In this document: piece by piece, positions 8,551 to 28,590 of the stretch
How the letters are laid out: every line of letters begins with the position of its first letter
Position numbering within the stretch: position 1 is the stretch's first letter
DNA from: Chrysochromulina tobinii
Lineage: Eukaryota > Haptophyta > Prymnesiales > Chrysochromulinaceae
Length of the DNA stretch: 28,837 nucleotides
Reading direction: 5' to 3'
Assembly: GCA_001275005.1 (NCBI GenBank)
Contig: JWZX01003299.1
Location: 1-28,837 of the forward strand
Made by a program: the position numbers and the translations under genes
Notes under the pieces: model-generated
Told to the model about the DNA's origin: nothing
Database searches by the model: none
The model's input: only the letters and a program-made list of their open reading frames with translations

Positions 8551-8590
8551 TGATACGTCTCAAACTGCTCCCCCCTTTCACTGTACGTTG

Positions 8591-8654
8591 GCGCCGTGAG
8601 CCAATACGGCGCTAGACCAACCCAACTGTCATTCGGACCTTTAATCGGTCCGAA
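8591..8654 (+). other. Paired RNA stem-loops in the 5' LTR
   Basis: Stem 1 pairs GCGCCGT (8591-8597) with ACGGCGC (8606-8612) around an 8-base loop. Stem 2 pairs TTCGGACC (8632-8639) with GGTCCGAA (8647-8654) around a 7-base loop. The 3' LTR has matching structures: stem 1 at 28280-28287 with 28302-28309, kept through a G-U pair, and a weaker stem 2 with one mismatch around 28327-28347. This suggests structured leader RNA under constraint. Confidence 0.6.
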
Positions 8655-8833
8655 CACATCGACGAGACTGACGATTATACCGTGTGCTTCGGTTCCCTTC
8701 TTTGACGGTTCCCTCGATGGAATCGAACACGCCATATACCCATATTCGGCAATTGCAAGCGTGCGCAAGAGAGAAGGTACGCGCGATAGATAAATACAGG
8801 CCACTTCCAAGAGTGACCCAGAGATCATCGCCA

Positions 8834-8848
8834 TCAGGCCTTGCCTGA
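8834..8848 (+). other. Conserved hairpin TCAGGC / GCCTGA in the 5' LTR
   Basis: TCAGGC (8834-8839), a 3-base loop and GCCTGA (8843-8848) form a perfect small hairpin. The same hairpin, also with a 3-base loop, occurs at 28508-28522 in the 3' LTR even though nearby bases differ. It lies about 30 bases upstream of the ORF A start codon. Confidence 0.6.
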
Positions 8849-8879
8849 CGACTAGAGAGAGAGAAACACGCTACGAAAC

Positions 8880-10940
8880 ATGATCTATTCTATCAACCCC
8901 ATCTTACAGACCAACATTGGTAGCCCCCGGACGAGGATCGTCGGGGAGCCCATTGTGCCCGACGCTCCCCAAAACCCTGCTGACGAATGCAGCCTCACGC
9001 CCCTGACCAGGCCGCACGCCCCGACCAACCTGACCAAACGATCGACGAAGCAGTCGACGACCACGGAGGAGACCGTTCTGATGAACCGCCTCACGCCAAG
9101 AGCGTCGATTATCTCGCCGAGCACGACAAGATCTGCCATCGCTGCGGATCCCGCAGGCCCGCAGCCGACACGGCAGCCGACCGAGATCGCCACGCCGACC
9201 GGACGACCGACGGGGCAGCAGACGCGTCCGGAGGAGAGCTTCCAGGAACTTCCGTCAGAACCAAGATCGTCAAAGAGGTCGCCGAACGCAAGGACTTCTG
9301 CCGATGATGCAGCCTCCGCAGGCACGCAGACGGCAGGGCATTCGAGCGAGCTCGTCACGCCGCCGCACGCGTCGCACGCGAACGAGACCATCACGCGCAG
9401 CACCACGTCGCCGATCGGGATCAGCGATTCCGCGAGCTCGCGCGCGTTCTGGGCGAGCCGTGCCGTCGCAAGAGCACCCGCTGCAGTTTCCGCAGCAACG
9501 CAGGTAGCAACCGCGCCGCGCGTCGACGAGAAGCCGTACGCGACGCGCACGACCGAGCAGACCGAGCGCAGCACCGCCTCGCCGATCACCGTCATCCACG
9601 ACAACACGCCGCGCGCGGACATCTTCACGGGGAAGCCCAAACGCGTCGACAAGGACGGCGCCTGCCTCTTCTCGTCGCTCGGTGGGCAGCACGCCAAGAA
9701 ATTAGTGCGCGAAGCCCTCGGAGACTGGCTCAAGAAGAACCCCCATTTCCCCATCTACACCACCACCCTTGCCCAGTATGTAATGGGCGAGACAGGCGAA
9801 ACGTGGTCTGTGTACTGCGCCCGCATGCAGAGCGATCGCACATGGGGTGGCCTGCCCGAGCTCGTCGCGGCCTCGCAAGTCTGGCGCCGCGTCGTCCGCG
9901 TCTTTGAGAACATCGGCGACGGCCTTTATGTCCTTCGCGCTGTGCTCGGAGAGGAGGGATTCTACACGGTCGCCATCGACCTGGTGCTCGAGAAGAACCA
10001 CTACGACGCGCTCACCGAGGTGCACCAGGCGAAAATGATCCAGCCGGAGAAGGTCGCCGAGGCGTGCCCGCCGAAGACGACCCCGATCGAGGCCCTCACC
10101 CTGGAGCTCAAGGCACTGGGCAGACTCAAGGAACTCGAGTCGTGCCTGAGGCCCAAGATGCCCGAGCAGCTCGTCGAGCCCAGCACGCCCGAGAAGATTG
10201 TCGAGCCCACCGAGCCCGAGATCGAGCACAAGGCGCCCACGCAGCTCGTCGAGCCCGTTGAGCCCAAGCCCGAGAGCAAGGCGCCCGAGCAGCCCGCCAA
10301 GCCCAAGGCCGAGCGCAAGGCCCGCAAGGAGCTCGTCGAACGACAAGTACTCGACGACCTCGCCGAGCGCAAGGAGCTCAAGGAGCTCGAGGAGCATAAG
10401 GCGCGAGAGCGGCATGCGATGCGCAAATTCATCGAACTCCTCGAACTTGTCTCCGCGGAAGTCAAGATCCTCGAGGAGCGCAAGGGCGAAGGCAAGGTAC
10501 CTGATCATCTCACTGTGCCCAAGGCGGAGCCCGAAGCCAAGGACCTCGGCGCGCGCAAGCAGCCCAAGCACTACGAGAGCCGCAAGGTACGGGCAGCTCG
10601 CGAAATGCGGGAAGGATTACTGGCATACCGCGCGCATCGAGCTCTTGAGGAGCGGGCCGCGTACAAGGCGCGCGAGGAGCTCGCGAGAGCAAACGAGGTG
10701 ATCAAGGTGCAACGCGACCGCCAAGCACGCGCAACGTCCAAGGAACGCGAAGCTCAAAAGGCACGTGAGGCAACTGCATGCCGGAGAGGCCAAGGAGCGC
10801 TCGACGCGCCCGCCGAAATTGAGCCACGAGGCAGTCATCAGCCTCAAGACCGCACCCCAAGCAGCCGCTTCCTTACCGTACTTTCCGGAGTGGTTCCACC
10901 TCGGGCAGGACGCGACGGCCGCTCACCATTGGCGCGATGA
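8880..10940 (+). CDS. Retroelement ORF A: OTU-family cysteine protease in a disordered, charged Gag-like protein
   Basis: The product is 686 residues. The ATG at 8880 lies inside the 5' LTR, and the first 12 codons ([12 protein letters not shown]) are nearly duplicated in the 3' LTR. Residues 15 to about 245 are Thr/Ser/Pro-rich and probably disordered. About 250-378 form an OTU deubiquitinase domain: [11 protein letters not shown] carries Asp259 and the nucleophile Cys262, followed by [11 protein letters not shown], the FYTVAIDL strand and NHYDAL with catalytic His374. OTU enzymes cut after the ubiquitin C-terminal Gly-Gly. About 395-480 is a Glu/Pro/Lys repeat (variants of QLVEPxxPE), and about 480-640 is a highly charged helical or coiled-coil region. 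The last 57 or so codons overlap ORF B, which is one frame ahead. The final Arg/Pro-rich residues may be an out-of-frame tail if +1 frameshifting occurs. OTU call is strong by motif. Confidence 0.85.
8917..8930 (+). promoter_or_regulatory. Putative tRNA primer-binding site
   Basis: TGGTAGCCCCCGG starts two bases after the CA end of the 5' LTR. Primer-binding sites start with TGG, which pairs with the CCA end of a tRNA, and the next bases would pair with a GC-rich acceptor stem. I cannot name the tRNA. The site lies within the coding frame of ORF A (codons 13-17), which is possible because the start codon is in the LTR. Confidence 0.6.
9630..10013 (+). other. OTU deubiquitinase domain (within ORF A)
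   Basis: Catalytic motifs are Asp259-Gly-x-Cys262 at 9654-9665 and His374 at 9999-10001, about 111 residues apart, as in compact OTU domains. A Trp-Gly-Gly-Leu-Pro-Glu-Leu motif lies between them, matching the family's W-G-x-x-x-E-L signature. No catalytic residue looks lost. Confidence 0.85.
10702..10937 (+). promoter_or_regulatory. ORF A / ORF B overlap, possible +1 frameshift window
   Basis: ORF B's frame opens after a TGA at 10699-10701 and ORF A ends at the TGA at 10938-10940, so both frames are open for 236 bases. Charged, helix-like sequence seems to pass from ORF A ([11 protein letters not shown]) to ORF B (HAGEAKERS) near 10770-10790, which suggests a +1 shift of the ribosome there. 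I see no certain slippery heptamer. The alternative is reinitiation at the first ORF B ATG, 10966, 25 bases after the ORF A stop. Confidence 0.4.
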
Positions 10941-13900
10941 AGAGATCACGCGTGGACGCCTCGCTATGTCTCGCGTGTTCGAGCTGGCGGTGCCGGCGAA
11001 CCTACATGGCGTCTCGGACCGTGTTCGCCACCAGCGTTGCGGCCGCATCGCCACAGCCCGCATTTCTGCCCTTGCCGCCAGCCGGCCCACCTGCCCGGGG
11101 TCATACGCCCGAGGACCCGAGCCCACCGCCCTCGGAGTGGCGACGACCAGAGCCAAGGAGAAGGAGCAGAGAGCCTGCAAGGCGAGAAAGGACTATTTCC
11201 CACCGAACGACCTGAGTCGCCATCACATCAGCTTCAGCCGGCGCAGCGAGGGTGTCGCCCCCCGAGGATGCAGGCACACGCTGGTCGTTATTCCGAGGGG
11301 AACGAGACGGCGAGAATCGTACGAGCAGACGTACGAGGTCCGGTGGCGAACGTGCGGTGCCAGTGGAGGACCTTGGGGAGAATCCTCGGACGACCCCCTA
11401 TCCGCTCGGCGGGCAAGGTACCAATCCCAACGCCCCCGCGAGCCGACGTCTCCACCTTGTGAGGCACCTTTCCGGTCACGCCGCCACACGCGTCGTGAGA
11501 GCCGACGGGCTGCGGGAGAACGGCCCAGGCACCAACGGCGCTCGTGCTGCTGGCCGAGACCATCCGCGAAAGTAGCCACCCGAACTCTGCCTTCGACCCC
11601 AGCTGGCCTACAAATTTTCGTACGGACCCTCATGGGTGGGACGATCACCATCGAGGTCGAGCCGACTGACTCGATTTGGGACGTCAAGACTAAGGTCCAG
11701 GACAAGGATGGGGTGCCATCCAGTCAACAGCGCATGATTTTCGCTGGTAAGCAGCTCGAGGATGGGTGCCTCGCTGCCGATTGCCACCTCACCAAGGGCG
11801 ACACGGTCCACATGCTGGGCAGCCTCCGTGGTGGCACAGCGCCTGATGCAAGCGCTACAGTCGGCGACGGAGTACAGGAGCTCGAAGAGGACCCTCTGTT
11901 CGAGGGAGATGCCCTGCTCATTGATGGGACCACGGTATTCCCGTGGGAAGAAGACCCTTTCTTCCTTTCCGACGCTTCTGTGCTGCAGCTCGAGGGAGAG
12001 TACCATCCGAATGGGGAGACCATCCCAGCCGCGATTGGTGAACTAACGCTTGTCCCTCCTCAACAGTACCCCCAAGCCATAGCGGTGTCTGTTCCACAAG
12101 GATTCCGCGCCGACTGGCGGGAACAGCTATTCGCATGGGACTGGACCAAAGCACTGCTGGACGAGGCGATCGCGATGAAGCTCGCTGGGATTGAAGCGAG
12201 GCACGCCCCTCTCGGCCCGGCCGCGTATGGTGATTCTAACACTATTGGACCCTACTACCCAAGGTCCAAACCGCCCGCCCAAGATACCCCGATGTATGTT
12301 CCACACGTGCGCATCCCAGAGCTCCCGATGCACGCTCGTGATCCCGATTGGGCCCCCAGGGTGGATCTTAGACGGCAGCTCCTCGAGGCGTACCGCCGAG
12401 GGTACCACCCAGGCCCGGCCAACGTCAGTAATCGCCCGCATCTCAGCCTGCCGAATATGTCGCCCGGGTCGCAGCGCGGACAGCATTACCGTGTCGGCGT
12501 GACCGACAGCGACGGCGAGACTGTCTCGATCAACCTGGCTGGCGGCTACGTAGCGAAGATTGCGAGCTATGTGCGCATCCAGATCAGCCAGATCGAGCCC
12601 TACCTGACCAACCGCCAGGAGCATCCGCCTTCTACGCACAACCTCCCCAACCTACAGCTCGCAATTCGAGGGACACTCACCGAGGCATACGAGTCTATCT
12701 GTGAGGGAATCAGCGCGTACGGTCCGCACGCGACTACCATACCAGTCAAGGAGGAGGTTATCATCCTCGTACTTGCACGCCAACTCGAAGACGACTTCCG
12801 TTGGGCATTCAACTACGCACTCGAACGCCCATATTACAATCTGCCGGTCGCCAGCGTTCGTCTCACAGCTCGGGGTTTGTGCGCCACATCATTCGCTCTC
12901 GGCGTGGCCTTCTCCTTCACTACCTTGACGGCCATCAATACCCACCAACTTGCGAACGCCACTATCCCCACCGAACTGGACCACTGCTTCGCTGCTTGCC
13001 TCCTTATTGAATCACCGACTACGATGCTGCCTCCAACGTCGGAGAGCCTGCAGCTTTTCGTACGGACCCTCACAGGAAGGACGATCACCATCGAGGTAGA
13101 GCCATCCGATACGGTCGAGATCATCAAGACCAAGATCCAGATTAAGGAGGGCACCCCGATTGGCCAGCAGCGCCTGATCCGCGCAGGGGTGCAGCTCGAG
13201 GATGCACGACTTGCCGCTGATTATCACATTGCCAAGGGTGATACACTCCACGTCCTGGGCAGACTTAGTGGAGGCACTCGCCCCAGTGCGCGTCTTGTAC
13301 ACGCCAGTCAGGTCTCAGACCACGACGTGCCACCTGATTTCGGACTCAACGCCGTTTGCGAAAGCCTAGGGCTGGCCATCACCGGCACCCACAGCGTGGC
13401 CACCCGGGAGGCGCGAACAGCCCCAAACCCGAGCGACGACAGATTCGTTGAGCATATGTACTCCCTTCGATGCAGTACGCTTGGGCCACGAAGCGGTGCG
13501 GAATGGGATCTTCTTAACGGGACCCGATGCATTATCCCGCTTCTTCCACTCTACGACTGCCAGGGAATCAAAGAGCAATCGAGTCACGAGCGCCGAGTGG
13601 CGGAGTTGACCGCCATACTCCACTCGAATGGAATGCCAGCGCTTCCATCAGCCAATCGTGTAAGCGGAGGGAAATGGAATCAGGAGCCCGAGCCTCGCAA
13701 CCCTGCCCACAGCGTCGAGGTGGCCATCCGTTTCGGATTGTCCACTAAGACCGACTGGAACTGGCGGGAACACACTCACAGCTTTCCCCGAGTTGAGACG
13801 CTTCGTCCTAACGACGACATCTTCAAGCTCACTGAGGCATTAGGCTATGCGACGGGCGACGCATACGAACATCCCCTCGCTACCTGGACGGACGCTCCGG

Positions 13901-16900
13901 GCTCCCATGATGTACAACTCTGTGAAGCCTGTCGAGCGTTGACCCGATCGCTGGTTACCTCTACCGCGCTTGAGAAGGCCCTCCTCATACCCACCCTGTG
14001 CATGGACTTCACCCATGCCCACGTGCCACACGAGCGGTTCCTACGTGGGCAGTACACCTTCTCTCACGCCTTCCGCCGCGTGTTACTTATCACGACTAAT
14101 TCCCCGACTACCTGGCTCGACAGGCTCGAAGGCCTTGCCGACGCTTTCAACATCAGCTTTTCTTTCGACCCACCACTCCCCTCACCGAGCGCCTCGACCC
14201 TAACTACTGTTAGCTTTGGATGTAAGTGTGCCCTGTACGCCATCGATAGCGACGCTGTTCGCCCAACGACCCTTCGGGCAATCCAGGACTACCAGGGCGC
14301 AGCCGACAGCTGGACGATGCTACCTACCGGGGGCTGGCGCATTCAAGGTTTTGGACCCACGTACCGGGCTCGCCTTGAACACGCGTCCTTTCGGCTATTC
14401 TGCATGGTCCTCAATGCCCTGTCCCACTCCGAGTCCCCCCTTGGAAAGCTTATGCGACGATCCGAGTACTGGCAAGAGGAAGCCAAAGGATGGTGGAGTT
14501 TTGAACCCTACGTCCCTGCTTTCGGCATGCGCAACCCCTTCACGCCCATGGGCATTAGGTACACGTCCGACGAAGCGCAGATCGACTTTTGGTTGGCCGA
14601 TGCCATCAGTCAGACCCTCGTAATTTCCTCCGTCCAGGGCCCAACCGTCGATCCTTGGGGCGGAATGCGATCTGGTCGGCACATCTTTGTGTTCCAAGCC
14701 CATCGATCGATGCTCGTCATCCAGGACCAGCGAGCTGTAAGGGATTCCCGACTTTTGCGATTCGTACTCACGTCGCCAGCCGTGGCCAAGATCGTGTGTG
14801 GTCCCGAACACGCATCTCGACTCCAAATCATTCTATCGCTTCCTGCCGGTGGCGATTGGATGTCGGAATTCTATGACATCTCCGATTTCGTTCCGTACAT
14901 CGCTTCCCCGAGCTCGCGCCAGGGTTCCCTTCGCGCCCTCCACGATTTGATCGGCTACCGAGAGGTGCTCGGAGGGAAATTCACGGGAGGTTCATGGTGG
15001 AGGCCGATGATAGATGAGCGCAACCGCGATCCCCAATACGAGGCCAGTGTCATTAGCGACACCCTCTGGTGTCTGGGCATCCGCGAGCCAGCCCATTACC
15101 TCAGGTGTTTTGATCGCGATGTGAGTACACCTACCGCTGCGACGTACCCTGTGATCGAGCTCCACACCTACCAGCTAGTCTACCGAGGTGGCGACGGGTC
15201 CCCTCACCATAGCGCATGCTCGTGCTGCAAAAAGACGCCCACCAGCTATCACTGCACAGCCTCGGGCTCCATCACCAACCTGGCTGTCCCGAAGCCCCCG
15301 CCTTGGCCGACCTGCTTTTGTGCTGGGCACTACACTCGTTGCCGTTGCTACGTCCGTGCGGTAGCATGGGCAGGACTCTCACCGAATGCAGCACCGTGGG
15401 TGCCGGAGGAACAGGCGACGCAAGCTTATCTCAACCTCGTCGACGCAATTAACTCGAGGCGAGAGGCACCTTTACCTTTTGCGGCGGCAACATCCTCCAA
15501 GCAAGCGGTTCGAGATTTACAACTGTTCAGCAGCCTACCCAAAGACGTCCTGACCATCATCCTCCGTCACGTTGCTGCCGCCTCAATACTCGGCACTACC
15601 CATTTCGTTCAGTCATCCAAGGCTGTCCGGAAGGCCGCCAGATCAGTCTGCTATGAACTCTACCTTGCTAGATGCGTGTGCGACTTCTTTATGATCCCAA
15701 AGCCACAGCAGCACTCTACGCCGGATAGGCAAGGGGAAAGGTCCCTTGTTCGGCACGTCATTTTCACTCTGCTTCCCGACATCGAGCTCCCAATTCTGCA
15801 CCCGACAACGCTACTAGCGCCCCCCGATGGACGGTACGACTGGGCAAGCAAGAATTCCCTCGCTGTCGATCTCTCCAAGACCACAGCCCGCACCGTCACC
15901 CCTGGAGGCCTCCCTTACGTAACTACCGTAATTGACTATGCGTGGATCCGCATACACGCAGCCGACTGGCTCCCGCACATTAACATCTCCCATCGCCGCG
16001 AAGCAAACTTACCGGGCGAGCTAATCGGTACCATCCTCGTCGCGGCCCGCCTCCTGCCTTATGCCGGTCACCGCGCCGTCAGCGCCCTTGTCTGCCGCAT
16101 CAATGAACCGCGCACTACGCACGGATCCGCGAACCTTGTCCACGTCGGACAAGACATAACTCACGCCCGCCACTTGCGCATGCTAGCGCCGACTGGAGCA
16201 AACCGGAGATGCCGCGACGGATGGACATCGATTTTCCTTCATCGAGTCGGAAGCCTAAGACTCGTACCTGCCCGCGAGTACGCAGGTTTTGACACTTTCC
16301 ACGCCCTTACAGTGGCCATCCGCCATGACTTCGATGGCCTTATGCCTAACCCAGCCACCGTACTACAGCAAACGGAGTCGACCACAGCGGCGCGCTCCAA
16401 GGTCACCATGATGGTGACCTCCCTGTCAACCCCAGGCCGATCAACACCCCTCCACCCTAGTGTGCGCTTGCTGGACAGTAGCCATTACACCACCGGCATG
16501 CATATCTCCGCCGCCGTATCTTACTCTAAGCTCCTCGTGCGAGTCTGGCCCCGATTCTTGCTTGCCCAAGTCGTGGAGACCGCCAACAACGAGCAGATCC
16601 TGCCTGATATCGATGAATACCTCGCCTTTGAGTGTGATACTAAAGTCTCCGACCTCTACTTCCGAGTCCATCACCTCTACTTTGCCTACCTTGGATCACC
16701 GCTTCTCCCGAAACCAATGGAGCTCTACCTTACCCACCACGCTCCCGATGGCACTGCAGATGACATCTTCAACACCGACACTCGGATCCAAGACCTCCCA
16801 TACTACACGCACGGTATGAACTGCTCTGTCACGATTGGAGAGCCTGGATTTACTGGCTCACAGCAAGAAACACCATCTGACGACGATGACGAGGAGGAAC

Positions 16901-19900
16901 AGGCCCCTACGCCCTACGTCAGTAGTGCAAGCCAAGGAGAAGGCCAAGGAGAAGGAATGCCCACCCTCCCCACCCTACAAGCCTCGCAGTACGAACAGAG
17001 AACACCACCTACGCAATTCAACACGAAGTCGGTCACCAACTATCTTACCCACCCTGATGACACCGTACGTGGCGATTCTAATTCTACTGAATCTTACTAC
17101 TCTCGACCCAAACCTCGACATGGCACCGCTCTATCCCATCTAGAGTATCCACACCCCGGGTCACACGCCACCATTTCACTCCGCATACGAGGCGGCAGCC
17201 CGAAACACAAAGGCACTGGCACCCGAGCATCGACACTCGGAACATTCCTCTCCCCCGGTACACCTGAGGCGACTGTGGAACCACACGACGCTTCCATCGA
17301 GCCTACACCAGGTTCCGTCACTGTGGATCCCACGACACTGCCTCCCCTTACCGAGATCGGAGCGTCGTCCTCAACAGTAGCGCCCCCCGTTGCGGCTTCC
17401 GAAGCGCCGCCCTCACCACTACTCAGAGCATCGCCCTCAATACCCCCTGCCTTCGATCCGTTCCTTGGGGCATCATCACCAATAGCGCCACCCGATCCTG
17501 GACTTGAAGCAGCACCGATGGCCGCGCCAGACTCTGTTTCGGCAACACTCCTCGACGAACTTCGAGAATCATCAGTGGCACACCATTTAACGCTATCAAC
17601 CCTCACGTTCGACCTCAGCGCCCATATCGATCACTCTCGTGAAGTAACCTTCACCCTGCGGGATTCCCTTGACCGAATCGCCCTTGACCTTAAGGCAAGC
17701 GACACAGACCGCCGTGCCCAACGCGAAGAAGCCGATCGCACCGCTCGTGCAAATAGCGATGCGATTGCAAGCCTCGCTCTAGACCTCAGGTCCAGTAACA
17801 GGGCCAACGACTCATTCCGAGACGAAATGAGACTCTTCATCGAGGCGATAAAACCACGCTCCCTAGACGGACTCTCCCAGCCCGCTCTACTCTCAGCCGA
17901 GACTGACCCAACCGCTGGCGGAACTGAACACGGCGCGTCCCGACTCACCCACGCGATAAAACCACGCTTTGCAGACGCCGAAACTGACCCAACCGCTGGC
18001 GGAACTGAACCCGGCGCATCCCGATTCACCCCCGCACCTTTTGGTCGCGGACGTCCACTTCGAGACACCACTCGTCAACCCTCAAGACTTACTCTTCCTT
18101 GCCACCCGGCCTCGGCAAGCTCGTCTAGTGGCTCCCCCGAACCACCAAGTTACCGTACTGCTGGCAAGTCAAACATGACCCCCACCAGAACAACGCCCCA
18201 GGGCAAACGCCTCACTACATATGGCCGCAAGCTCGACGTTGCGAGTACGCCCGACTCGAAGAAATACGCAATCGTCGCTGTGGTAAACATCAACGGAATC
18301 ACCAATGTATGCGCAACAGAGCAGTTCCGTACGTGGACACTCACACGACCGCAATCCACAAACATCACCATCGAAACCGCTATTTGGAGCCTCCTGCATG
18401 TCGGAGTGATTGATGCACGGAATATATTCGCCGAATTTGACCCGGTCTTTTGCGATTTCCAATTCCGGATCGGATACGGCGACACAACCGACGATACCCT
18501 TGATGGCATCTTACGCCTCACGTTCCCGGACTCACGAGACACCGACCCCCAAACGTCAGTCAACGCTATTGCCCAGACACTACGCGAGATGGATTTTTAC
18601 GACGTCATTACCACATACGTCCAATCCAACGCAGCTGTCAAGGCGACACATATCGCCAACCTCGCGCCTATTGAAATGCCCATCAGGGCCATTGAACGTA
18701 ATGAACTACGTAGGACGCTCGCGGCGGCCCTTATGTGCCACCCCTATTCGGAAGACGTCCAAGCCCCCCACAACCACCGATTGGGCGACACCAGCTCGGA
18801 CCAGGAGCGATCACCTCCGGAACACCGCCGTACCCTATGGAATAGACTCCCCCAGATGGATGTCGCCGCTGCACTTCCACACTGGACTGCAGACCTGAGT
18901 ATACAAGCCTTTCAACAGCTCCTCATCACGACGATCCACACGGACACCGCATCCCTCGTCGCTGACCTACTCCGTGAGCAAGATCCCCTCCAAACGATCT
19001 TAGCAGCCATCCTGCGACGGCACCACGACTCCGCTGAATTCACAATGCTCGTGACCGCCGACATCGCCGAGCACCTCAAGGAGGAGCTCGTGTTCTTTAA
19101 AACCCATCACGCAAACGTCGTCAGTGATGCCCAAATCAACTACACTGACGCTCAACACCACCGCTCATTTCTGAGCGTTCTTTGCGTATGTCTCGCCGCC
19201 ATCCGTAGCGCCTTCCTTGGTACCTCCAGAGACGGCGCCCTCCACTCAGAGGCCCGCCAACTTCTCACACAGATTGCCATCATGCCCTCTAACTCCGATG
19301 TCGAATATCTTCTCGAAGCCAACGCTTATTGGCTACGTTATTCGAAACTGTGGGGCCCAGTCCTACTCCTCAGCTTATGTGACGGCGGCCAAATCCAAAC
19401 CCTTCTGCCATCCGTCACTAGTCGCCTCTCGCCACCCATGCAAGAGCGTATACTCCTTTTCTTTGGCGAAATCGCACACCGCCTTCGAGTCACAAATGAC
19501 GCCGGAAATCTCCCGGCCGCATTCGCGTCGCAGCTCTCCAGCATCTTGACGAAACCTCTAGTCCTCCACTCAACTATCCCCGCACTGCACACCTACGCCG
19601 AATTTTCAGGGCAATCCGCCGTACTAAAGGCAATGCACAATACCGACATGTCCCTGGGCAGCCACACCCACCGCATCGCGCACCCTGCGGACCTCGCATT
19701 TGTTGGCAAAACAGGCGCACTCGCTGATTATTGGCCCGCCATGATGCGACTACTCCTCGGTCATCACAATCGTGTTCTCGTTGCGCCAGCGGCTCAAATC
19801 GCCCTCGTCGCTTGGGATGACATCCAATCCAAGGAACCTGACGACGTGCTCCTTGTCGCCGATGGCCCGAGATTCCGCCCGGGACCGAAAACCATCATCC

Positions 19901-20820
19901 GACAACACGACCGCCTGGCGAGCGCCGCCGATACTCAGTTCACCAAACTCGAAGCTAATGTCAACAAGGCGCACTCGCAAATCGAAACAAAAGTGAACTC
20001 CCTGCAATCAAGTATTGAATCCACCCTCGAAGCCAAGGTCAATTCCCTCCAAGTCAACATCGAGAAACACCTCGGTACCATCCAAGGGACAATAATGAAG
20101 GTCAGCAAGGACCTCGGCTCGCGACTCGACCAACACGATGCTTCCATGGCTGCATTCCACGACCTTAATGCTCATAACGCACAAACTATGCAGCACTGCC
20201 TTCGTAACGTCGCCGACTCAACCACCGAACTCAAGCACGCTGCGACAATCAGAGACGCTGCCGCTGCCATCGGCAAGCATGCTCGAGCCCCTGTGATTCA
20301 CCTTCCTCCCGTATCCGCCGCACCCGCACGTACGACGCTCCTCCATGTGCAAGATACACTAGACGATCCGACCGACGCCATCGCTCACCAATTCGCCATC
20401 GCCTGTGAAACTCACGAAGTCACCTCACTTGACGACCTCCTCGCTTGGGTGGAGACCGACGGCCAACCCGAGCCTTCAGATCTTTTCGCTCTCACCTTCA
20501 ACCGTCGACCGGCCTCCACCGCCCCACAGGGCACTTACAAACTTTCGAAATGGCCCGCCTTAAAATTTGACGACCTTACAGACGCAGCAAAGACGCTCTA
20601 CCTGAAGCGTGACAACGTTACCTCTGCCGAGTCTTACCTATCCGCCACCAACCGCTTATGTACCAACTGCGCACCGGAAAGTCGTCTAATGCCTCACCTC
20701 GAAAGTCGCTGCCCCACGATATACCGACACACTAACCAAGGCCGGAAAGACCGTGATGCCGTTCGACTCGCGCGCGACACGGAACGTTTGAATGAACTCC
20801 AATCCACCACTGCCACCTAG
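10765..20820 (+). CDS. Retroelement ORF B: 3351-codon Gag-like polyprotein with two ubiquitin-like domains and an F-box-like motif
   Basis: This frame is open for 10 kb, and its first ATG is at 10966 (codon 68). In order (residue 1 = codon at 10765): an Arg-rich linker; ubiquitin-like domain 1 (282-357); about 400 unrecognised residues; ubiquitin-like domain 2 (762-837); a region at about 1270-1445 like a degenerate DEDD 3'-5' exonuclease; a Cys/His cluster (about 1481-1530); an F-box-like motif (about 1587-1636); an acidic Asp/Glu run and Pro/Ser/Thr-rich linker (about 2035-2260); a helical stretch with an imperfect 27-residue repeat (about 2270-2425); about 600 unrecognised residues; coiled coil (about 3055-3170); and a C-terminal zinc knuckle, Cys3299-x2-Cys3302-x8-His3311-x4-Cys3316. 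The knuckle, just before a UAG, marks the end of Gag. The length is several times that of ordinary Gag. Whether the N-terminal start is a frameshift from ORF A or an internal ATG is open. Confidence 0.85.
11608..11835 (+). other. Ubiquitin-like domain 1 (within ORF B)
   Basis: The domain is exactly 76 residues, like ubiquitin, from LQIFVRTL to SLRGG, followed by Thr. Position by position it keeps Lys27, Lys29, Lys33, Lys48, Lys63, Leu8, Ile44 and the Leu73-Arg74-Gly75-Gly76 end. It has lost Lys6 (Arg), Lys11 (Gly) and Met1 (Leu). Loss of Met1 means it is made only inside a longer protein. The Gly-Gly end keeps the signature that deubiquitinases recognise. Confidence 0.95.
13048..13275 (+). 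other. Ubiquitin-like domain 2 (within ORF B)
   Basis: A second domain of exactly 76 residues runs from [10 protein letters not shown] to RLSGG, again followed by Thr. It keeps Lys27, Lys29, Lys33, Lys63 and Ile44. Lys48 is Val, Lys6 and Lys11 are Arg, and Arg74 is Ser. It is closer to ubiquitin than domain 1 at some sites (TLTG, EPSDT) and further at others, so the two copies have evolved apart for some time. Confidence 0.95.
14570..15100 (+). other. Possible degenerate DEDD-type 3'-5' exonuclease fold (within ORF B)
   Basis: Residues about 1270-1445 follow the order of secondary-structure motifs in WRN/RNase D exonucleases: a SMLVIQDQ strand, [38 protein letters not shown], a SWWRP motif and [12 protein letters not shown] near the end. 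The acidic metal-binding residues expected in the first two motifs are missing ([15 protein letters not shown]) and the last Tyr-x3-Asp is not in register. If homologous, it is probably inactive. This rests on eye alignment only. Confidence 0.35.
15205..15357 (+). other. Cys/His-rich, probably zinc-binding cluster (within ORF B)
   Basis: Residues about 1481-1531 hold a dense set of Cys and His: CSCCKK, YHC, then [12 protein letters not shown]. Spacing CxCC and CxC...CxC would suit one or two zinc ions. It lies between the exonuclease-like segment and the F-box-like motif. I do not recognise the family. Confidence 0.5.
15523..15672 (+). other. F-box-like motif (within ORF B)
   Basis: Residues about 1587-1636 read [17 protein letters not shown], then a hydrophobic helix and [12 protein letters not shown], matching the F-box pattern of LP-x-D/E-hydrophobic-hydrophobic-x-x-I-L and a later S/C-K-x-hydrophobic-R. 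F-boxes bind Skp1 and place substrates on SCF ubiquitin ligases. It is the third ubiquitin-system module in this element. Motif-level evidence only. Confidence 0.55.
17896..18031 (+). repeat. 81-bp direct repeat in ORF B
   Basis: A unit encoding [11 protein letters not shown]-[HP]-GASR begins at 17896 and recurs at 17977 (period 81 bp, 27 residues). The second copy runs to about 18031. IKPR motifs appear upstream of both. The copies differ by several silent and a few coding changes. The segment lies in a linker between helical regions. Confidence 0.8.
20659..20712 (+). other. Gag-type zinc knuckle at the ORF B C-terminus
   Basis: The pattern Cys-x2-Cys-x8-His-x4-Cys (residues 3299-3316) resembles the retroviral CCHC knuckle, which binds RNA, but with eight rather than four residues before the His. 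It is followed by a basic tail and, about 35 codons later, the UAG. Its place at the end of ORF B supports calling ORF B Gag. Confidence 0.6.
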
Positions 20821-20855
20821 GAAACCTCGGCGCCGTCCATCCAAACCACGGTGCC
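20818..20855 (+). promoter_or_regulatory. UAG readthrough site with downstream hairpin
   Basis: ORF B ends with TAG at 20818-20820 and ORF C continues in the same frame. After an 8-base spacer, GGCGCCGT (20829-20836) pairs with ACGGTGCC (20848-20855) through eight pairs including one G-U, with an 11-base loop. In murine leukaemia virus, Gag-Pol is made by UAG readthrough driven by an RNA structure 8 bases downstream, so the geometry is similar. Host-type genes at 6616-7428 and 7826-8290 end in TAG, which argues against UAG being a sense codon here. Confidence 0.7.
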
Positions 20856-23800
20856 ACCCTACCCTACCACCCACCCACCACTTCCACAGCCCCCCCTTCC
20901 GGCAGATGAGGGGGTGCCCCAAACCGACGCCCTCCCGACTAGCCCTGAGGAGGTCAGCAACCCCCCACCTGCCCCATTAGAGACGCCAACCCGAAATGAG
21001 GGGGTAATAAACCCCACTGAGGCGCATCTCGCCACTTCCTGCTTAGAGGGGGTGACGACTAACCTGGACTTCAATAAGCAGGACAGCGTCGACAGATCAC
21101 CAACCAACGTACCAATACGTACCGTCGTCGACCTATTCTCAGGCTGCGGAGGACTAGCCCTCGCAGCGAGATCGCTCGGATTTCACCACCTAGCCCTCAT
21201 CGAATCCAACGAAAGATGCGTAGCCACGCTCAAGCTTAACGGATTCAGTAACATCATCCACAATCAGCTCGAACACGTCGACCTATCCAACTCCAACGAT
21301 GCTGACCTACTCACTGCAGGACCGCCATGCCAACCCTGGTCCATCGGCGGTAAAAGCCTAGGTGAAGAAGACTCCCGAAACCTATGGGCAACCACCGTAA
21401 GAGCTATCAACGACGTCCAACCGAAGGCTTTCCTGATAGAAATGGTGGACGGCTTCCTCCGACCCAAGTTCGATACCACCCGATGGCAACTTATCGCTGA
21501 TCTCCAGGCCCTAGGCTACTGCGTGCAGATCTCGAGAGTGAATGCCCAGGATTATGGCGTGCCACAATACAGACGACGATGCCTAATCATGGGTCGACGG
21601 TCGTTACTGCCAATCATAGCACCTCCAGGACAGCCTCCTACCACATTACGCGACGCACTCCGAACCCTTGGGGAACCTAACGGCATGAATCGGCACGATC
21701 AGATCGGACAAGCCTCCAGCTACGAGGGCCATGAACCCAGCCACCTCGATGCCCAAGCCAAGACCATCAGGGCAGGCGTGCATGGGCCAGGTGGGGGAAA
21801 CAACACCGTAGATACCGGAAGCGGACCTCGCTACTTCACCATACGGGAAATGGCCAGAATTCAGACTTTCCCCGACGACTACCAATTCGACTCGATCTGG
21901 TCTCATGCCATCAAGGAGATAGGCAACGCATGCCCACCTGCACTTGCTAAATTGTGGCTAGAGTCGCTAGTGGGAGAACCAACCATTGCACCCTCGATCG
22001 CACCCAGCGACGCGCCACAGGCAGACGGAGCCTATGATGTGCCCGCCGAAGGCATCGAATCCCTGCGACGCGAGCTCTCCAGACGCACGAAGCTCACTCA
22101 CATCCTAGAAGCCCATGCCTCAATCCTGCAAGGTCAACTCGACGAGTCCACAGAGGAGATGATCAAGCAAAAGGGGAGTATCGACGCGTATTTACTATCG
22201 TTAAGCGAGCGTGTCGCCGATCTCGAAGGCCATCTCATACCCGACGATCATGACGTCAAGGCCGCACTCGAGCACGCTGACTTATCCTCGCTTGAGCCCG
22301 AGTCCCGACTACGCGTGGGAAAAGCAGTGGACCGCACCTTAGAACTGTCACTACTGCTTCGTACCCTTCGTCAGGAGCGCGCCCTGGCGGAAGCCATTGC
22401 AGAGGGACGGACCACCACCGACACCATGGCCCACCTGCCAGCTTATGAGAGCACTAGATTAACTGAGGCCAGACGTGCTGCCTATCAGCACAGCGTCGAC
22501 TCGTCATTGGACGCTACTACCAATGGTAGCCCCCAGTTGCCCCAGAAGGTCCTCAACCGAGCTGTATTCTTCGAATGCCCGGCCAGACTACTCCAAGAAC
22601 AGGAAGACGAAGCATGCCCCTTGTTCCACGTGCAAGCCATCCCAGACTCAAGAGAAGAAGAGGATGAGGCCTCGATGTACTACTCGGTCCGGGCAGACCT
22701 ACTCATCGATGATGGTACCGGTAAGAAGATTCCCATGAGTAGTGTGGTCGACTCAGGAGCTGCATGGACGGCTCTTAAGCACGCCTTCCTAGCTCGTGTC
22801 GCCCCCGAGCTCCTCAAATTGATACTACCCAGCCAGAAACGATTCAAGGATGCTCAAGGGAACCTCATGGCCATCGCTGGAAGGATTCCGCTAACTATCT
22901 GGATGGGGGGTCTCAAGCTCACGACGTATGCCTACGTATTCCACCAACTCAGCGTAGATTGCCTCCTGGGCGTAAACACCTTGTCCAAGAATCACATGAT
23001 CATCGACTGCAACGCTGGACGACTCTACGCAGCCGCCGCCCCCCACGAGGGCGTACCTATCAGAACAGGCCTGTGTAATACCTGCAACACCTGCCCCCAA
23101 GAATCACGGGTAATTGCGCTATGCGTGGAGTGCTCGCCCGACGACGCGTCCATCCGCCAAACCTCTGTGGCGTACGATGCAGATCATAGCACTTTGCTAG
23201 TAACTTCCCCGAGTGGAAGTGTCGAACTACCTGTGACGCGCTCTAGCTATGCCCCGGCGAAACTCAGACTGGATAGCTCCATCGTCGTGGAACCCGGGAA
23301 GCGTGCAGTGCTCGATCCAAGAATTGTCGGACTCGACCCTGATCGACTGGAGCCCACCCTATTCAGAACCAGCACAGTGATAACCCAACTCGGACTCCTG
23401 TCGTTGGACGAGACCATCCATAACCCTACAAGCCTCAAGGTCCCCTTTACCGTCTATAACCCTACCGATCAACCGATCACTTGCCCGAACCATCTTATCC
23501 TAGCCACCGAGTCACGAGCCAGCGTGGAAGACGAGTACATCACGATCGCAGCTATCCTAGACGAGCCGACGGATGGCCTCAGAGGGGTAGATGACGGAGG
23601 GGTCGAGGACCTACGGGGACTAGGATTCAACTTGGATCATGCCATCGATCCCGACCTTCCCAGGTTCCCTGATGGAAAATATCAACCTCTCCATGAAGAT
23701 AAGAAACGAGAGATCTACGTAGTCGCCCTACGCTACCATTACGTGTGGGCGCGAGATGCCAAGGTACCGCAAATCTCGTACCTGGTAGTCATAGACATAC

Positions 23801-28236: not shown

Positions 28237-28590
28237 TGATACGTCTCAAACCTCTTCCCACTTCTAACACCGTACATCGGTGCCGTGAGCCTCAGAGCCA
28301 ACACGGCGCTAACCCAGATGACTCATTCGGTCCTTTAACCGGCCCGAGCATACTGACGGACCCCGTGATTCCACCGTGCTCCGGCCCATGTAAGGTAACG
28401 GGGCGCGAGATGGAATACTAAATCCGGCAATTGCGCACGCGCATATTGCCGCAGTTTCGATCAACTAAACAGCACAGCCAACCAGCTGCGCCACAGAGTT
28501 GCCGACGTCAGGCCCTGCCTGACACATACAGAGAGAGAAAGAGACCGAGAGAGATGATCTATGCTATCAACCCCATCTTACAGACCAACA
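28237..28590 (+). repeat. 3' long terminal repeat
   Basis: This copy is 354 bp and starts TGATACGTCTCAAAC. It keeps the stem-loop region, the TCAGGCC-CTGCCTGA hairpin, the GA-rich leader, and an ATG at 28554 followed by [12 protein letters not shown]. The nucleotides differ from the 5' LTR at about a third of positions. The ATG here opens a 30-codon frame ending TAA at 28646, outside the LTR. Confidence 0.85.

Follow-up and report, generated by a model that had tools for sequence, protein, structure and literature searches.

A giant haptophyte retrotransposon that unites an OTU protease with ubiquitin domains and foldless ubiquitin tails, the candidate cut sites of its polyprotein

We analysed a stretch of 28,837 nucleotides from the haptophyte Chrysochromulina tobinii (GenBank assembly GCA_001275005.1, contig JWZX01003299.1, positions 1 to 28,837 of the forward strand; hereafter the window), which carries what is, judged by its repeats and the domain order of its proteins, a giant Ty3/gypsy-type long terminal repeat (LTR) retrotransposon of ~20 kb with relatives in public sequence sets. 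Its first open reading frame (ORF A) encodes a protein with an OTU deubiquitinase domain, and its second (ORF B) a giant protein with two whole ubiquitin domains and, further downstream, a naked ubiquitin tail that follows no ubiquitin fold. Our preferred reading, to which we give a probability of roughly 0.5, is that the OTU protease cuts the element's own polyprotein after the Gly-Gly of these ubiquitin-type tails, at three places referred to below as sites 1, 2 and 3. A first-pass annotation of this DNA had placed a retrotransposon at 8880..15672 and suggested that its OTU domain processes the giant protein after Gly-Gly; the element is real and reaches further than that, spanning ~8551-28590 from LTR to LTR, and the processing idea has gained a further LRIRGG site, without a fold, whose motif recurs in 4/4 ORF B proteins (window included); from it, together with sites 1 and 2, we infer cleavage. 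The features that bear on this proposal are as follows, with arrows at the proposed cuts.

8880..10940, + strand: ORF A, 686 amino acids, the OTU protease protein
9645..10019, + strand: OTU domain, from the Cys262 box to the His374 box (Pfam and catalytic boxes)
10765..20820, + strand: ORF B, 3351 amino acids, with a mechanical GTG start, overlapping ORF A in a different frame
11608..11835, + strand: ubiquitin domain 1, ORF B residues 282-357, ending LGSLRGG↓T (site 1; PF00240)
13048..13275, + strand: ubiquitin domain 2, ORF B residues 762-837, ending LGRLSGG↓T (site 2; PF00240)
15520..15684, + strand: F-box-like segment, ORF B residues 1586-1640 (hhalign)
17179..17199, + strand: naked ubiquitin tail LRIRGG↓S (site 3), ORF B residues 2139-2144, no ubiquitin fold upstream
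20659..20712, + strand: CCHC-like zinc knuckle near the C-terminus of the ORF B protein, C-X2-C-X8-H-X4-C by eye, also found in the related contig C1312

The OTU motifs of ORF A, Cys262 and His374, lie exactly where the first-pass annotation had put them, and the Pfam OTU profile matches all 13 members of the ORF A family alignment at E<=0.1. When cut out of its protein, the window's domain scores 25.3 bits, above the cut-off of 23.3. The catalytic Cys box is present in 12 of the 13 family members, the exception (P0018) being truncated there, and His-Tyr-Asp is kept in 13/13. A search with ORF A returned 11 public relatives with the OTU region, six of which bear a precomputed Pfam OTU label; one relative (P0017) comes from the same genome, where it lies on contig C490 as Ctob_007991. 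Compared with the PDB, the ORF A family profile matched chains named OTU1 together with chain 6dx3 (E 0.0043-0.044); the latter carries the name RNA-dependent RNA polymerase and is a nairovirus OTU. These structural matches are weak but of the right kind. On profile and motif grounds, then, ORF A has the OTU deubiquitinase signature with its catalytic Cys and His, and cleavage of ubiquitin is its putative activity. Searches of the C. tobinii genome itself (53 Mb in 2253 contigs, the window being contig C2140) found 21 OTU matches, including that of this element. P0016 and P0017 have a second, partial OTU-like Cys box N-terminal of the full OTU domain, with the Cys replaced in the C490 protein.

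The two ubiquitin-like domains with Gly-Gly ends that had been read in ORF B were borne out by PF00240, which matches the protein in two stretches (E 4.5e-40), corresponding to a ubiquitin fold by sequence profile with terminal Gly-Gly, in both cases followed by Thr. Identity to host ubiquitin is 61% for domain 1 and 62% for domain 2, and the two agree with each other at 64%. Comparing them with the two ubiquitins of the public relative P0005, we found Leu73, Gly75, Gly76, Ile44 and His68 retained in 4/4 and Leu71 changed to Gly in 4/4, while Arg72 is Ser in three of the four and remains Arg in domain 2 of the window. E1 enzymes need Arg72 for the activation of ubiquitin. Because this residue is lost in 3/4 element ubiquitins, these domains are more likely to be cut sites than conjugable modifiers. 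The C. tobinii genome holds 22 ubiquitin matches besides those of the window; the frame was read around eight of these (L010, L019, L022, L025, L030, L015, L021 and L026), which look by eye like host genes for polyubiquitin, kinase, ankyrin-type and other proteins.

Using ORF B residues 838-2200 as a query, we identified two public proteins: P0004 (81% identical), which begins downstream of the ubiquitin region, and P0005 (40%), which holds two ubiquitins, the middle protein with its F-box-like segment, and site 3 in one protein. The known ORF B proteins, counting the window and contig C1667 of the same genome, all (4/4) have LR(I/L)RG(G/S) at site 3, in the form SPLRLRGG↓G in P0004 and PSLRLRGS↓G in C1667. 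A second tail of C1667, MSLRLRGS↓G, stands where ubiquitin 2 of the window ends. Profile-profile windows revealed no ubiquitin fold upstream of site 3 in the window or upstream of either site of C1667, and shuffled proteins are expected to contain 0.003-0.0045 such motifs each. The site-3 regions of P0005 and C1667 can be aligned with each other (E 8e-7; 40.8% over 76 columns), and none of 500 shuffles reached the score of the downstream part; the same holds for the similarity downstream of site 3 between the window and P0004 (0/500), while that between the window and P0005 over 45 amino acids downstream is modest (4/500). Two further candidates were rejected: a third ubiquitin-like domain suspected by eye near ORF B residues 1900-2030, which reached <=1.1% in 39/39 windows, and a degenerate ubiquitin ahead of site 2 in C1667, which reached 0.6% at best. 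Separately, three Pol relatives (P0055, P0096 and P0117) have LRLRGG or VRLRGG in the stretch that links RNase H to integrase; these three LRLRGG-type motifs, against 0.54 expected among the best 120 of 126 Pol relatives, fall at the equivalents of residues 1518, 1536 and 1721, with no single site in common.

The relatives also show how the OTU region is joined to ORF B. In C1667 both lie in one frame of 2452 amino acids that runs off the contig, and in P0010, P0015 and P0016 the frame of ORF A stays open into the first part of ORF B; the beginning of ORF B in the window contains the region that relatives have continuous with ORF A. P0013 unites the OTU domain with part of a ubiquitin, which is truncated, in one protein. 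It had been considered that relatives might lack the modules, which would make the window's copy a one-off chimera. This is not what we found: both ubiquitins and the F-box-like segment recur in P0005, P0013 combines the OTU domain with a partial ubiquitin, and the OTU region is present in 11 public relatives of ORF A. C1667, on the other hand, has the OTU domain and the F-box-like segment but no ubiquitin folds, which shows that the ubiquitins are not always part of the set. Its naked tail at site 2 and its single frame for OTU and ORF B, along with the three further ORF A relatives that run into ORF B, nonetheless add to the case for OTU processing of the polyprotein. Compared with the window, C1667 is ~77% identical in Pol (91% in the reverse transcriptase, RT) and ~30-42% in OTU and ORF B; the contrast between 77% in Pol and 30-38% in ORF B suggests an exchange of the 5' half or its fast evolution. 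The order along this contig (L049, L050) is Pol, a single LTR and the 5' half of an element, as in either tandem copies that share an LTR or an assembly loop. No relative of the middle protein or of the RT was confirmed among viral contigs, and among bacterial and archaeal contigs we found one contig of a metagenome-assembled genome, with Pol only, that ends before the upstream part.

Between sites 2 and 3 lies what we call the middle protein. The F-box-like motif reported there by the first-pass annotation stands at ORF B residues 1591-1600 (nucleotides 15535-15564) and is backed by profile-profile comparison, while Pfam F-box matched no sequence in the four-member alignment of the middle protein. 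A search of the C. tobinii genome with PF00646 gave 31 matches at E<=0.01, none of them on the window's contig, and a reference profile was built from 25 of these 31 host F-box matches. Against it, the four-member alignment of the segment (window and three relatives) scored 85.5%. When hhalign was slid along the entire middle protein in 39 windows, the three that hold the whole motif scored 82.2-84.4%, one that ends inside the motif 62.0%, and the other 35 of 39 at most 0.4%. We therefore describe the segment as F-box-like, by profile-profile similarity and without Pfam recognition, with SKP1 binding as a putative function. The part of ORF B after site 3, which ends in the zinc-knuckle-like motif, is probably Gag, and the earlier view that all of ORF B is Gag is accordingly probably wrong.

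Under the reading that we favour, ORF A and ORF B, which in C1667 literally share a single frame, would be made as one polyprotein, and the OTU protease would cut this at sites 1, 2 and 3, after Gly-Gly. Four products would result: the OTU protein with a basic extension, a spacer, the middle protein with its F-box-like segment, and a C-terminal part that resembles Gag; processing of Pol would be left to the aspartic protease. At sites 1 and 2 the ubiquitin folds would then be captured recognition handles that improve on an older, tail-only site. Going beyond cleavage as such, we suggest tentatively that deubiquitinase logic has replaced or supplemented the usual protease, the OTU domain and a set of ubiquitin and naked-tail cut sites having co-evolved in one polyprotein whose F-box-like product acts on host factors. 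It is possible, and again no stronger than tentative, that the tails of one lineage drift in concert under this deubiquitinase logic, both tails of C1667 being LRLRGSG.

The rest of the element is made up of the following parts.

8551..8916, + strand: 5' LTR (TG...CA), a repeat with 28237-28590; holds the ATG of ORF A
8917..8940, + strand: putative primer-binding site (TTGGTAGCCC...), directly 3' of the LTR here and in C1667; also coding (IGSPRT)
20818..20820, + strand: lone in-frame UAG separating ORF B from ORF C, the same in C1312
20821..28236, + strand: ORF C (Pol), with DNA methyltransferase, aspartic protease, RT, RNase H and integrase (Pfam)
20829..20855, + strand: 8-bp hairpin resembling a readthrough signal, 8 nucleotides after the UAG (predicted fold, z -3.35)
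21121..21960, + strand: C5 DNA methyltransferase domain (PF00145, E 2.1e-51)
28237..28590, + strand: 3' LTR, a repeat with 8551-8916

As expected of a Ty3/gypsy element, there are two LTRs of the form TG...CA with a primer site after the 5' LTR, and Pol has the order protease (ORF C residues 628-712), RT (1085-1211), RNase H (1323-1460) and integrase (1895-2059). The methyltransferase, RNase H and integrase zinc domains score above their Pfam cut-offs, while the RT (28.7 of 29.6 bits), the integrase core (26.6 of 32.6) and the aspartic protease (24.8 of 28.2) fall below theirs; RT and integrase labels are present on close Pol relatives. A search with Pol residues 80-1500 returned 126 proteins, and among the best 120 of these the methyltransferase label is on the 30 best (P0019 to P0048) and not on the other 90. 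The LTR start and the primer-site motif are common to the window and C1667. ORF A begins inside the 5' LTR, the putative primer-binding site doubling as coding sequence (8880-8940).

The LTRs of one insertion should be alike and flanked by a target duplication. Here they agree at 233/341 aligned bases (68%), and a comparison by eye of the flanks of both LTRs gave no match that would indicate a target site duplication; the order of Pol is unaffected. Because the LTRs are only 68% identical and lack a target duplication, the copy looks mosaic or rearranged, or the contig misjoined, even though the window keeps uninterrupted frames of 3351 and 2461 codons.

ORF B and ORF C are separated by the single UAG alone. 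C1312 (L083), which matches the window at 58% identity in its ORF B part and 65% in its ORF C part, has a counterpart of the hairpin with z -4.20, and both predicted hairpins have 8 bp, an 11-base loop and a position 8 bases past the UAG. They differ by a single compensatory base pair and a single replacement of G-U by A-U, and the predicted folds gain outer pairs that reach into the UAG. A single in-frame stop with a predicted downstream RNA structure is hence present in 2/2 elements examined at the DNA level, and the UAG and hairpin form, on this modelling, a probable retrovirus-like gag-pol readthrough signal.

Several observations weigh against cleavage by the element's own OTU protease. 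OTU and ORF B of the window copy are in two overlapping, different frames, and the OTU domain would therefore have to act in trans or need a frameshift. Whole ORF A scores 21.8 bits with Pfam OTU, below the curated cut-off of 23.3. The tail pattern was chosen post hoc, after the sites had been seen, and with P0004 81% identical to the window the independent lineages number ~3. Both tails of C1667 have Gly-Ser rather than Gly-Gly, and OTU enzymes normally require Gly at the cut. Moreover, in a full-length alignment site 3 of the window is out of register with P0005 and C1667, and similarity downstream of site 3 is not significant between the window and C1667 (111/500 shuffles), P0004 and P0005 (68/500), or P0004 and C1667 (66/500). 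On the supporting side stand our ratios of nonsynonymous to synonymous substitution (dN/dS), rough NG86 values though they are, at dS of 0.6 to 2.4: 0.23 between the two ubiquitins of the window, 0.45 for OTU against C490 and likewise against C1667, 0.39 for the middle protein and 0.06 for ORF C. Against host ubiquitin the two domains give 0.42 and 0.31. By these estimates the element's proteins are under constraint, the OTU domain and the middle protein less so than Pol.

Of the alternatives, the one we take most seriously, while still thinking it unlikely, has the modules act on the host: the OTU protease would deubiquitinate proteins of the element or silencing factors, the F-box-like protein would recruit host factors to an SCF ligase, and the ubiquitins would be sorting or degradation tags on Gag-like proteins. 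This would suit an F-box-like segment that can be aligned across the window and three relatives, and it finds parallels in the USP-type deubiquitinase of another giant retroelement of this genome, a distant relative described below, and in the OTU and Ulp1 proteases that are accessory in Ginger and some Helitron elements, for which the available text proposes a ubiquitin-pathway role (PMC2836005). It leaves unexplained why foldless tails stand at defined places, and why C1667 has tails without ubiquitins, and it leans on an F-box that Pfam does not recognise. Host deubiquitinases, which cut natural ubiquitin fusions in this way, might instead process the tails, with the element's OTU reserved for another job. 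Linear ubiquitin fusions are routinely cut by host enzymes, the genome yields 21 OTU matches, counting the one in this element, and OTU and ORF B do not share a frame in the window copy; yet naked tails without a fold are poor substrates for most host enzymes, and the two naked sites of C1667 share the changed tail LRLRGSG, as one would expect if they followed the element's own enzyme. We consider this explanation rather improbable.

Still less probable, in our view, is that the ubiquitin domains and tails are functionless leftovers captured in a mosaic element. The state of the LTRs does indicate a mosaic copy, C1667 does without the ubiquitin fold, and the ubiquitin of P0013 is truncated. 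However, the window shares its ubiquitin pair with P0005 despite just 40% identity in the flanking protein, Gly-Gly and Ile44/His68 are retained in 4/4, and dN/dS between ubiquitins 1 and 2 is ~0.23. An assembly artefact that joined unrelated pieces in the contig would account for the LTR mismatch and the missing target duplication, and the assembly is a draft from 454 and Illumina reads, published, in the text available, at 59 Mb, 3,472 contigs and 63.4% GC (PMC4580454) and so larger than the 53 Mb searched here. We give this hardly any credence: P0005, from another source, unites two ubiquitins, the middle protein and site 3; P0013 unites OTU and ubiquitin in one protein; and ORFs of 3351 and 2461 amino acids are open.

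A different giant retroelement of the same genome, on contig C2236 (L084, L085), is distantly related to that of the window, with 29-31% identity in the RT. Upstream of its RT lie a USP-type deubiquitinase and an SF1-type helicase, and this part is preceded by a 543-amino-acid ORF that ends in an in-frame UGA. Taken together, the two elements would, on the tentative reading above, make deubiquitinases a tool to which giant retrotransposons of haptophytes have turned repeatedly. If the OTU protease does cut the tails, a retrotransposon has independently reached the processing logic of the coronavirus papain-like protease (PLpro), the foldless tails show the minimal site, and enzyme and substrate on one molecule offer a natural system for the evolution of deubiquitinase specificity; it would also bear on why deubiquitinases recur in mobile elements. 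To this the same element adds a DNA methyltransferase in Pol and the probable retrovirus-like stop readthrough.

Some pestivirus polyproteins reportedly use an inserted ubiquitin as a cut site, and we know of no OTU of their own in these cases. Among mobile elements, Ginger1 and some Helitrons are alike in having an OTU domain; unlike the element described here they are DNA transposons, the OTU of Ginger1 lies at the C-terminus of the transposase, and the available portion of that text mentions no ubiquitin domains or tails (PMC2836005). KnitGypsy-Dnmt3 and the DNMT retrotransposons of Symbiodinium similarly carry a C5 DNA methyltransferase in the Pol ORF of a Gypsy element, and the text at hand for these contains ubiquitin, OTU, haptophyte and Chrysochromulina zero times (PMC5890265). 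OTU in DNA transposons and a methyltransferase in Gypsy Pol are thus known already from these accounts, as far as their accessible portions go (PMC2836005, PMC5890265). No retrotransposon with both ubiquitin and OTU was among the literature matches listed, within open-licence texts. The accessible part of the C. tobinii genome paper has 0 occurrences of words beginning 'transpos' or 'ubiquitin' (PMC4580454), and a survey of microeukaryotic DNA methyltransferases includes haptophyte enzymes, with 0 occurrences of Chrysochromulina in its available text (PMC9998398). The gag-pol junction resembles that of murine leukaemia virus, in which gag and pol share one frame and UAG is followed by an 8-nucleotide spacer and then a stimulatory RNA structure; according to the portion available, the virus has a pseudoknot, measured readthrough and an unstructured spacer, whereas here a hairpin is predicted with outer pairs into the UAG (PMC4178896).

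For the proposed processing itself, the closest likeness is to coronavirus PLpro, which is also a deubiquitinase and, in the text available, cuts after three LXGG motifs in its polyprotein, a deubiquitinase-type cysteine protease thus being encoded in the same polyprotein as ubiquitin-tail motifs (PMC10933793). In the element, an LXGG-type motif is found at site 3 in 4/4 proteins, but as Gly-Ser in C1667 and in a register of the window that the full alignment leaves unconfirmed; the protease is in the same polyprotein in the one frame of C1667 and in frame in P0010, P0015 and P0016, and in two overlapping frames in the window. PLpro and OTU are different protease families. Cleavage is proven for the viral enzyme and inferred for the element, which is a retrotransposon and not a virus and in which, unlike the PLpro system, two of the three sites end a whole ubiquitin domain.

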